From Streptomyces sp. WP-1 (GTDB taxonomy: Bacteria; Actinomycetota; Actinomycetes; Streptomycetales; Streptomycetaceae), in contig NZ_CP123923.1 in NCBI RefSeq assembly GCF_030450125.1, positions 4,464,001-4,528,000 on the forward strand: a stretch of 64,000 bases of DNA. The letters are read 5' to 3'. The notes under the pieces were generated by a model, which searched no databases, was not told the DNA's origin, and was given only the letters and a program-made list of their open reading frames with translations. The position numbers and the translations under genes are program-made. Of this stretch, positions 50,391 to 52,884 are shown piece by piece; position 1 is the first letter of the stretch, and each line of letters starts with the position of its first letter.

Positions 50391-51491
50391 TTACCGGGCG
50401 ATGTCCGCATACCCCTCGATGTCCTGCGGGCGCCGCGCCCCCGGCCCCACATACCTGGCCGTCGGCCGCACCAGGCGGCCCGTCCGCTTCTGCTCAAGGA
50501 TGTGCGCCGACCACCCCGCCGTGCGCGCACACGTGAACATCGACGTGAACATGTGCGCCGGCACCTCCGCGAAGTCCAGCATGATCGCCGCCCAGAACTC
50601 CACGTTCGTGGCCAGCACCCGGTCCGGCCGGCGGCTGTGCAGTTCCTCCAGCGCCGCCTTCTCCAGCGCCTCCGCCACCTCGAACCTCGGCGCCCCCAAC
50701 TCCCGCGCCGTACGCCGCAGCACCCGCGCCCGCGGGTCCTCGGCCCGGTACACCCGGTGCCCGAACCCCATGAGCCGCTCGCCCCGGTCCAGGGCCCGCC
50801 TCACATAGCCCTCCGCGTCCCCGGTGCGCTCGATCTCCTCGATCATCCCGAGCACCCGGGAGGGCGCGCCCCCGTGCAGCGGGCCGGACATCGCGCCGAC
50901 GGCACCCGAGAGCGCGGCGGAGACGTCCGCGCCGGTGGAGGCGATGACCCGGGCGGTGAACGTGGACGCGTTCATGCCGTGTTCCGCGGCCGACGTCCAG
51001 TACGCGTCGACCGCCGCGACATGCCGGGGATCCGGCTCCCCGCGCCAGCGGATCATGAACCGCTCCACGACCGACCTGGCCTTGTCGATCTCCCGCTGCG
51101 GCACCATCGCCAGGCCCTGCCCGCGCGCGGACTGGGCGACGTACGACAGGGCCATGACGGCGGCCCGCGCCAGGTCCTCGCGCGCCTGGCGCTCGTCGAT
51201 GTCGAGGAGGGGCTGGAGTCCCCAGACGGGGGCCAGCATGGCGAGCGCGGACTGGACGTCCACGCGGATGTCACCGGAGTGGACCGGGATGGGGAAGGGT
51301 TCGGCGGGCGGCAGCCCCGGGTTGAAGGAGCCGTCGACCAGGAGGCCCCACACGTTGCCGAAGGAGACATGGCCGACCAGGTCCTCGATGTCGACGCCCC
51401 GGTAGCGCAGGGCGCCGCCCTCCTTGTCCGGTTCGGCGATCTCCGTCTCGAACGCTACGACTCCTTCGAGCCCGGGTACGAAGTCGGACAT
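50391..51491 (-). CDS. Citrate synthase 2 (citrate/2-methylcitrate synthase family)
   Basis: This is a 366-residue short citrate synthase. The His-containing motifs are AMSGPLHGGAPSRVLGM and MGFGHRVYRAEDPRA, and the catalytic Asp region is EFWAAIMLDFAEVP. These correspond to the His-His-Asp set of the family. It opens with FVPGLEGVVAFETEIAEPDK and GGALRYRGVDIEDLV. It is shorter than the main GltA, as for secondary citrate synthases. Methylcitrate activity is possible but not readable. The start is ATG 51491. It is divergent from pdxH. Confidence 0.9.
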   Translation of the reverse strand: MSDFVPGLEGVVAFETEIAEPDKEGGALRYRGVDIEDLVGHVSFGNVWGLLVDGSFNPGLPPAEPFPIPVHSGDIRVDVQSALAMLAPVWGLQPLLDIDERQAREDLARAAVMALSYVAQSARGQGLAMVPQREIDKARSVVERFMIRWRGEPDPRHVAAVDAYWTSAAEHGMNASTFTARVIASTGADVSAALSGAVGAMSGPLHGGAPSRVLGMIEEIERTGDAEGYVRRALDRGERLMGFGHRVYRAEDPRARVLRRTARELGAPRFEVAEALEKAALEELHSRRPDRVLATNVEFWAAIMLDFAEVPAHMFTSMFTCARTAGWSAHILEQKRTGRLVRPTARYVGPGARRPQDIEGYADIAR

Positions 51492-51629: not shown

Positions 51630-52316
51630 GTGACCGACCGCGAACCACTCCTGGATCCCGTCCTCGACCCCGCCGCGATGCGCAAGCAGTACCGGGCCGA
51701 CGGACTCGCCGAACAGGACCTCGCCACGCACCCCATGGACCAGTTCGCACGCTGGTTCGAGGATGCGGCCCGGGCGGCCCTCCACGGCACGCTCTACGAG
51801 CCGAACGCCATGGTCGTCGCCACGGCGGACGCCGAGGGGCGGCCCAGCTCACGCACCGTGCTGATGAAGCAGTTCGACACCGAGGGCTTCGTCTTCTACA
51901 CGAACTACGACTCCCGCAAGGGCCGGGACCTCACGGCGAACCCGTACGTCTCGCTGCTCTTCCCCTGGCATCCGCTGGCCCGGCAGGTCATCGTCACGGG
52001 CGGCGTCCGGCGCACCGGGCGGGACGAGACGGCGGCCTACTTCCGCACCCGGCCGCACGGCTCCCAGCTGGGCGCCTGGGCCAGCGCGCAGTCCACGGTG
52101 ATCGGCTCGCGCGCCGAACTGGACGCCGCGTACGCCGAGTTGGCGGACCGCTATCCCGAGGACGAGCGGGTGCCGGTGCCCCCGCACTGGGGCGGCTTCC
52201 GGGTCGTACCGGAGACCGTGGAGTTCTGGCAGGGCCGCGAGAACCGGCTGCACGACCGGCTGCGCTACACCGCCCGCCCGGACGGCACATGGACGGTCGA
52301 GCGCCTGAGCCCCTGA
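51630..52316 (+). CDS. pdxH: Pyridoxamine 5'-phosphate oxidase
   Basis: This is a 228-residue FMN enzyme that makes pyridoxal phosphate from pyridoxine or pyridoxamine phosphate. Landmarks are [90 protein letters not shown] and NRLHDRLRY. The length is the family norm. The start is GTG 51630, with no strong ribosome site. Confidence 0.94.
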
Positions 52317-52334
52317 GGGCCCCGAAAACGCAGA

Positions 52335-52397
52335 CGACCCGCGAGCCGGGTTCCTCCGAGGAGGAGCCGGCCGGACGTACCGGCAGCTCGCGGGTCG
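52335..52397 (-). terminator. Terminator of the small RNA (possibly also of pdxH)
   Basis: CGACCCGCGAGC (52335-52346) pairs perfectly over 12 bp with GCTCGCGGGTCG (52386-52397). The interior holds a second stem, TCCTCC-GA-GGAGGA. On the minus strand it is followed by TCTGCGTTTTCGG, giving direction. On the plus strand it stands 18 bases after the pdxH stop. Confidence 0.75.
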
Positions 52398-52478
52398 GGT
52401 GACTGCTTGGGATTGGGCCGGGCTGCACGTATCCCTCACGTGCCGGTCCGGCACCGCACTGAGCGTGGTGACGAGCCG

Positions 52479-52517
52479 CTAGCCCGCAGCCACCTCACGC
52501 GTCCGGTATGCATACAT
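52479..52517 (-). CDS. 12-residue peptide ORF in the small RNA
   Basis: ATG 52517 to TAG 52479 encodes MYAYRTREVAAG. AAGGGAGGTGG lies about nine bases upstream, a very good ribosome site for so short a frame. The peptide has no known function. It may be translated to regulate the RNA or be an end product. Confidence 0.5.
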   Translation of the reverse strand: MYAYRTREVAAG

Positions 52518-52548
52518 TCGCCGAACCACCTCCCTTCCGTGTGCCTAC

Positions 52549-52577
52549 AGCCTAGGAACCGGCCGGAGCGGACTCAA
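52549..52577 (-). promoter_or_regulatory. Vegetative-type promoter of the small RNA
   Basis: On the minus strand TTGAGT (52577-52572) and TAGGCT (52554-52549) are separated by exactly 17 bp. This is the best HrdB-like promoter I saw in the window. Confidence 0.65.
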
Positions 52578-52884
52578 CTGTTTTTTCCGGGACCCCCGCC
52601 GGGCCCCCGGATCGCCCGAACGGAGGAGCGGTACCGGCGGGAGGACGGTCGCGGGTGCCGCCCGAATTCCGGCGCCGGGGGTTCGGGGCGGTGGTCTATG
52701 GGAACGCGCTGGACGACGAGCGCGGCGAACGGGTCGACCTGCGGCTTCCGGTGACGGGAGCCGGAGATTGATTCGGTCCATCTTGAGGGAACAGGATGTG
52801 GGGTGCGTCACGTTCGAGTTGAATGAGGGGCAGTGAGCGGAACGGGCGCCTTACGTGCGCCGACGCAGCGTGCAGGGGGTCCAG

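Follow-up and report, generated by a model that had tools for sequence, protein, structure and literature searches.

A conserved actinobacterial small RNA whose short reading frame may couple translation to RNA folding

Introduction

The trp and erm leader-peptide attenuators contain a short open reading frame (ORF) whose translation and the folding of the RNA exclude each other, and SgrS/SgrT is a dual-function small RNA (sRNA). An sRNA on the minus strand of the window, meaning the whole 64 kb stretch of DNA analysed, can be set beside both. The likeness to the attenuators proposed here is that translation of a short ORF would be incompatible with a fold of the RNA; the differences are that the window RNA ends in its own terminator, that no same-strand gene stands behind it and that its neighbours vary by lineage. 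With respect to the attenuators, what was found is an ORF overlapping with covarying pairs, translation being read from comparison and from published ribosome reads only. With SgrS/SgrT and RyhB/RyhP it has in common that a small RNA carries a short ORF, but here the sequence of the ORF is not kept and the ORF overlaps the fold itself.

The uORF sensor of PMC12121999 can be grouped with the leader-peptide attenuators. Extended Shine-Dalgarno (SD) mRNAs of S. aureus are likewise characterized by SD pairing past the core, but according to the available portion of PMC13009471 the extra pairs are start-proximal and belong to protein-coding mRNAs, whereas 16 pairs to the 16S 3' end occur here in a small RNA.

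Family identity and distribution

An Rfam/Infernal search, which the first-pass annotation had named as a check, was run and gave a match above the cut-off to RF02471 (Ms_IGR-5) with 83.7 bits (gathering cut-off 45, E 5e-17), extending over model positions 1-184 of 184, by which score the window RNA is a full-length member of this intergenic family in actinobacteria. The earlier description of the RNA as unannotated was thus wrong at the family level, RF02471 being already catalogued as an actinobacterial sRNA. Its name Ms_IGR-5 derives from Mycobacterium smegmatis.

In the excerpts available of the papers cited in this paragraph, IGR-5 is counted among the earlier M. smegmatis sRNAs and overlaps ncMSMEG15794c (PMC10454040), the S. 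lividans homologue SLIV_16488 was validated by RNA-seq (PMC8079986), and the S. avermitilis homologue forms an sRNA transcription unit (PMC8780764). Homologues in M. abscessus and M. smegmatis were covered by ribosome reads, with the authors' caution for M. abscessus that clear evidence of translation is lacking for such RNAs (PMC4974804). Among 58 Streptomyces sRNAs that are conserved, four were said to be possible genes for a conserved protein (PMC3765725), and the ORF of the RF02471 RNA may already have been noted in a table of that paper; S. coelicolor scr4389, named in PMC8388888, may be the same RNA. The accessible text of PMC11678152 yielded nothing on the RF02471 RNA. Literature searches on Ms_IGR-5/RF02471, scr4387/4388/4389, dual-function sRNAs, extended SD sequences and leader peptides returned no function experiment in the parts of the sources available, nor did this material mention the maintained ORF, the structural revision or a ribosome-gated reading; the family itself is known.

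The genome holds a single copy. Rfam's model matched 120 of 121 genomes of the genus (taken to be Streptomyces), 249 of 394 genomes and 85 of 137 genera in a draw from the class, and 70 of 396 genomes in a draw from the phylum. A new covariance model, built from 73 sequences with the pairings P1 and P2 described below, reached 141 of the same 396 phylum genomes (95 of 236 genera), its E-values being rough. The RNA is not universal, since 145 of the 394 class genomes had no match with Rfam's model and 14 control genomes gave none. The one genome of the genus lacking a match (G008, 5.5 Mb in 740 contigs) reflects either loss or an assembly gap, and a weak second match of 27.8 bits in another genome of the genus (G069:C1:1815352-1815493) is possibly a degenerate copy. 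As for mobile carriage, one exact pattern had no hits in viral contigs and one search of plasmids gave no match, so neither showed a sign of it.

Layout of the locus

The order of promoter, strong ribosome site, 12-codon ORF and terminator was read from the minus strand between 52325 and 52577; the same order had been proposed in the first-pass annotation and was confirmed by this direct reading together with the RF02471 match. The features framing the RNA are as follows.

52572..52577, minus strand: -35 element TTGAGT with an A tract before it, from the sequence and a comparison of upstream regions
52549..52554, minus strand: -10 element TAGGCT, 6 nt upstream of the conserved ACAC start, from the same evidence
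52325..52542, minus strand: sRNA of ~218 nt (RF02471 match 52329-52542), with the 3' end predicted from the U run and the 5' end from the promoter
52409..52414, minus strand: conserved AAUCCC linker directly ahead of the P2 3' strand, from the alignment
52386..52396, minus strand: 5' arm of the terminator stem, from RNAalifold and pair counting
52336..52346, minus strand: 3' arm of the terminator stem, from RNAalifold and pair counting

TTGAGT and TAGGCT are separated by a spacer of 17 bp, and the A at 52542 is the likely transcription start. Judged by E. coli standards the promoter is weak (7 of 12 matches), and a strict promoter scan found none; of the 160 loci with placeable upstream sequence, 135 nevertheless contain the pattern TTG-N19..22-TA...T in the 60 nt ahead of the RNA. 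The A tract ahead of the -35 element (52578-52590, minus strand), which also appears in the consensus of 160 upstream regions, resembles the UP element of a strong promoter. At the other end, the strong terminator stem (52396-52386 paired with 52346-52336) is followed by GTCTGCGTTTTC, placing the end near 52325, and a strict scan detected one terminator-like site against 0.2 in shuffles. The middle region between the ORF stop and the terminator is variable, and the comparison of RNAs revealed no partner strand for the AAUCCC linker.

Ribosome site and reading frame

Three features belong here.

52523..52538, minus strand: ribosome site GGAAGGGAGGUGGUUC, 16 consecutive pairs with the 16S 3' end (G-U included), -26.3 kcal/mol
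52479..52517, minus strand: 12-codon ORF MYAYRTREVAAG, from ATG at 52517 to the stop TAG at 52481-52479, from the sequence and comparison
52491..52496, minus strand: SD-like GAGGUG inside the ORF, 9 nt before the stop codon, from invariant columns of the 115-sequence alignment

The 16S 3' end of this genome, as read from retrieved loci, is GGAUCACCUCCUUUCU, and all of its 16 nt find a partner in the ribosome site. Among 9949 prefiltered, overlapping sites scored over the two strands of the window, this one has the most favourable energy, the next lying at -21.7 kcal/mol. Homologous sites (n=172) have a median of -29.3 kcal/mol and a weakest value of -10.8.

A canonical in-frame start 13-17 nt from the GAGGTG motif together with a stop at a fixed place was found in 78 of 78 genus loci and 82 of 94 others, counted over the 172 loci with a located ribosome motif. 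Because the search for starts was tied to the frame of the stop, the independent controls are the other frames and the stop codons. Starts were obtained in 161 of 171 loci in frame, in 64 in the +1 frame and in 8 in the +2 frame. The stop position (n=171) reads TAG in 134, TGA in 26, TAA in 10 and CAG in 1, and TGG never occurs against 20.5 expected with the last two bases independent, a calculation that ignores relatedness. The 12 exceptions outside the genus comprise nine with ATT, ATC or CTG at the start position, one overlooked by the motif finder and intact by eye (L091), one reading one codon further (L106) and one with no start (L076). Rare starts (ATT, ATC, ATA or CTG) accompany a strong ribosome site in L070, L078, L079, L081, L084, L085, L086, L088, L092, L333, L341 and L348, and TTG makes up 47 of the 83 canonical starts outside the genus.

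In a later test, 40 of 40 further loci kept the ORF from ribosome site to stop; these came from the 71 genomes matched by the new model only and none was among its 73 sequences, but they are not blind to the stop, as the model scores the sequence around it. The usual frame is used in 35 (32 with a canonical and 3 with a near-cognate start) and another frame in 5 (4 canonical, 1 near-cognate). In L355, L359, L360, L362 and L364, which belong to two families, GAGGUG is read in another frame, and four of these end in GGGSS or the like.

The extensive complementarity to 16S rRNA seen in the window RNA and its homologues, and the frequently weak start codons, would suit a 30S sponge or sensor, an RNA that binds the 16S 3' end and holds or protects small subunits, with translation and strand release as side effects. 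This explanation is unlikely, as it leaves unaccounted for both the kept in-frame stop and the covariation of the ORF end with the 3' domain, which is described below.

The peptide is not kept

The encoded sequence behaves differently from the frame. Members of the class differ widely at codons 2-4 and also differ at codons 10-12; codon 5 has the form NGG (R, W or G), and R, C, S, E, G or Y is encoded at codon 7. No amino-acid selection was seen in codons 2-4 among 48 one-step pairs: in segments one base apart the synonymous share was 0.25 against 0.20 expected, a small number of pairs. A C-terminal T-x-E-V is conserved within the class, but its constant residues Thr, Glu and Val are encoded by nucleotides that are invariant or take part in pairing, and the constancy of E and V is partly circular, GAGGTG having been used for site finding; for the same reason the occurrence of GAGGUG in 151 of 151 ORFs is to be read with the motif's role in finding the site. 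Because the codons vary, no amino-acid selection was seen in codons 2-4 and five loci change frame, the comparison suggests that the ORF is kept and the peptide sequence is not.

These observations bear on a dual-function RNA of the SgrS/SgrT type, in which the 12-residue peptide would be functional and another part of the RNA would pair with target mRNAs. The kept ORF and the conserved T-x-E-V speak in its favour, and the variable codons 2-5, 7 and 10-12 and the position of T-x-E-V on constrained nucleotides against it; with no amino-acid selection seen in codons 2-4 and the five-locus frame change, a conserved functional peptide as in SgrS/SgrT was rejected and the explanation appears improbable. 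The earlier proposal of a peptide gene or dual-function RNA is accordingly disfavoured. Conservation in relatives, suggested at the same time as a check, held for the promoter, the ORF and the stems with covariation, within the genus and far beyond, and failed for the peptide sequence.

Three pairings of the reading frame

RNAalifold on an alignment of 115 sequences proposed P1, P2 and the terminator, and the pairing PK, which joins GGACx in codons 5-6 to the nGUCC terminator loop, was added to these.

52538..52541, minus strand: P1 5' strand CACG, from RNAalifold, covariation and the own-vs-foreign test
52496..52499, minus strand: P1 3' strand CGUG (codon 7 and the first base of codon 8), from the same evidence
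52486..52494, minus strand: P2 5' strand GGUGGCUGC (ORF codons 8-11), from RNAalifold and covariation
52398..52406, minus strand: P2 3' strand GCAGUCACC, immediately ahead of the terminator stem, from RNAalifold and covariation
52500..52506, minus strand: PK ORF side CCGGACG (contains Thr codon 6), from covariation and the own-vs-foreign test
52371..52377, minus strand: PK terminator-loop side CGUCCGG, from covariation and the own-vs-foreign test

The second half of the ORF thus pairs with the RNA 5' end (P1), the pre-terminator strand (P2) and the terminator loop (PK), and all three pairings covary. Over 33 pairs in 115 sequences, 92.7% of 3762 cells were paired, compared with 83.1% in shuffled and 33-40% in slid controls; the covariation score was 0.323 versus 0.160, and 413 cells were changed on both sides versus 148.8 in shuffles. 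None of 500 shuffles, which ignore relatedness, reached any of five measures. Taken alone, P1 showed 46 both-side-changed cells versus 11.1, P2 50 versus 18.4 and PK 71 versus 31.9, each with 0 of 500 shuffles reaching the value; for doubly changed pairs and pair types, respectively, the shuffles reaching the value numbered 29 and 88 of 500 for PK, 22 and 0 for P1, and 10 and 10 for P2.

The PK core GGAC/GUCC hardly varies within the class, and of 115 rows, 54 and 39 lack one or the other of its two outer pairs and 29 lack the wobble pair. The third base of Thr codon 6 faces its loop base as G-C in 41, U-A in 24 and A-U in 17 rows, with 29 of 114 rows unpaired, and within the genus this pair is Watson-Crick in 37 of 40 rows with three pair types. 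P1 appears swapped as a whole in distant loci (CACGAG/CUCGUG, CCAGGG/CCCUGG, CCGAGG/CCUCGG, CGGG/CCCG) and PK variants occur in some of them (GUGACC/GGUCAC or GCGCGACC/GGUCGCGC), these being best-of-many picks chosen with no control and superseded by the own-vs-foreign tests. In those tests an exact partner of the four-base P1 3' strand was present in the 5' end of the same RNA for 176 of 211 loci, compared with a mean of 17% for foreign ones (maximum 25%, 200 draws), and in 34 of 40 new loci versus 5%, a control that speaks for the structure. For the six bases ahead of the P1 3' strand, the same RNA contained a perfect downstream complement at 109 of 211 loci versus a foreign mean of 11% (maximum 19%), and in the new loci this PK 6-mer scored 15 of 40 versus 7%.

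The structure differs from that given by Rfam for RF02471, which joins the ribosome site and the end of the ORF in a 5' stem and is devoid of P1, P2 and PK; the Rfam line names no ORF. Rfam's 5' stem can form in 87.8% of cells, with 0 both-side changes in the 115 sequences and scores equal to those of shuffles, and it was not adopted here. Pairing of the ribosome site with GGAC is a possible alternative, formable in 87.5% of cells but covarying less strongly. When the window RNA is folded to minimum energy with no constraints, neither P1 nor P2 forms, and forcing both costs 7.2 kcal/mol with PK excluded from the calculation; among the unconstrained folds of the 115 homologues, P2 appears in 82 and P1 in 27.

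A majority of paired bases among the conserved positions of the ORF, as seen here, would also be expected of a plain trans-acting sRNA whose ORF is incidental, kept as a by-product of RNA structure. No pair found explains the start or the stop, however, as the NTG lies in the P1 loop and the variants at the stop position are themselves stop codons, and this explanation is given little credence.

Neighbouring genes

The pdxH gene on the plus strand ends at 52316, and an sRNA ending in the U run would leave a gap of about 8-12 nt to the pdxH stop codon. The next same-strand gene in the window is gltA (50391-51491), past the terminator and pdxH, and attenuation of a downstream gene in the window was rejected on this ground. 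The earlier description of a free-standing unit with internal structure is supported.

A role as a cis-antisense regulator of the pdxH 3' end had also been suggested. The two genes are convergent in the window as in 31 of the 39 genus loci with long flanks, and also in some other families, and the terminator hairpin may serve both transcripts; the coding region is not overlapped, however, and no pdxH was found within 1.5 kb of the RNA in mycobacterial or other-class loci, so that antisense action on pdxH is disfavoured and considered extremely improbable. Even within the genus, the citrate synthase gene gltA directly adjoins the RNA in place of pdxH in L047 and L048. Other neighbours differ as well: in the few loci scanned, an aminotransferase and an ABC transporter lie beside mycobacterial copies, and the neighbours of other copies include a VTT protein and a histidine phosphatase.

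Because neighbours differ between lineages, no common gene stands behind the RNA. Across 130 loci the next gene lay on the opposite strand in 82 and on the same strand in 42, with none called in 6, as judged by a crude caller based on third-position G+C. In Mycolicibacterium litorale (L227), a same-strand gene for the solute-binding protein of a transporter starts just behind the RNA. The same-strand neighbours count slightly against a gene-less reading, and the RNA may have a cis role in lineages with such a gene behind it.

A possible translation-gated fold

Comparison of the loci shows an ORF with a strong site that is kept from start to stop, apparently with no peptide kept, and the same nucleotides form three predicted, covarying pairings. 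The reading preferred here, held with somewhat less than even confidence, is that of a regulatory RNA that stands alone and is gated by translation, being either closed in its fold or occupied by a ribosome. Judging by geometry, the PK and P1 strands would lie beneath a 30S subunit positioned at the ribosome site and start codon, and P2 beneath a ribosome that has reached the stop, hence the closed fold and occupancy would be mutually exclusive. The 16-nt complementarity to rRNA would enable the ribosome to compete against a very stable fold; the internal GAGGUG, whose 9 nt to the stop correspond to the spacing between an SD sequence and the P-site codon, may hold the terminating ribosome. Occupancy would then free the 3' strand (AAUCCC, GCAGUCACC and the GUCC loop) for pairing in trans, by which the RNA could report on free, initiation-competent ribosomes; these last two steps are the least certain. 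For the output of the open state, trans release of the 3' strands is inferred as the first choice and a 30S sponge as the second.

A broader formulation, more tentative still, is that of a phylum-wide leader without a gene, in which occupancy, tuned by the 16-nt pairing with 16S rRNA, might switch the three-part fold and report the ribosome pool to other RNAs.

Biological meaning

For many of the sRNA families that Rfam catalogues no function is known, and comparison alone yields a testable mechanism here, in which the ORF would be kept for ribosome placement rather than for its peptide and its nucleotides would double as partners of a long-range fold. If this is true, actinobacteria, including antibiotic producers, would own an ancient stand-alone RNA sensor of translation, and the same design may hide in other catalogued sRNAs.
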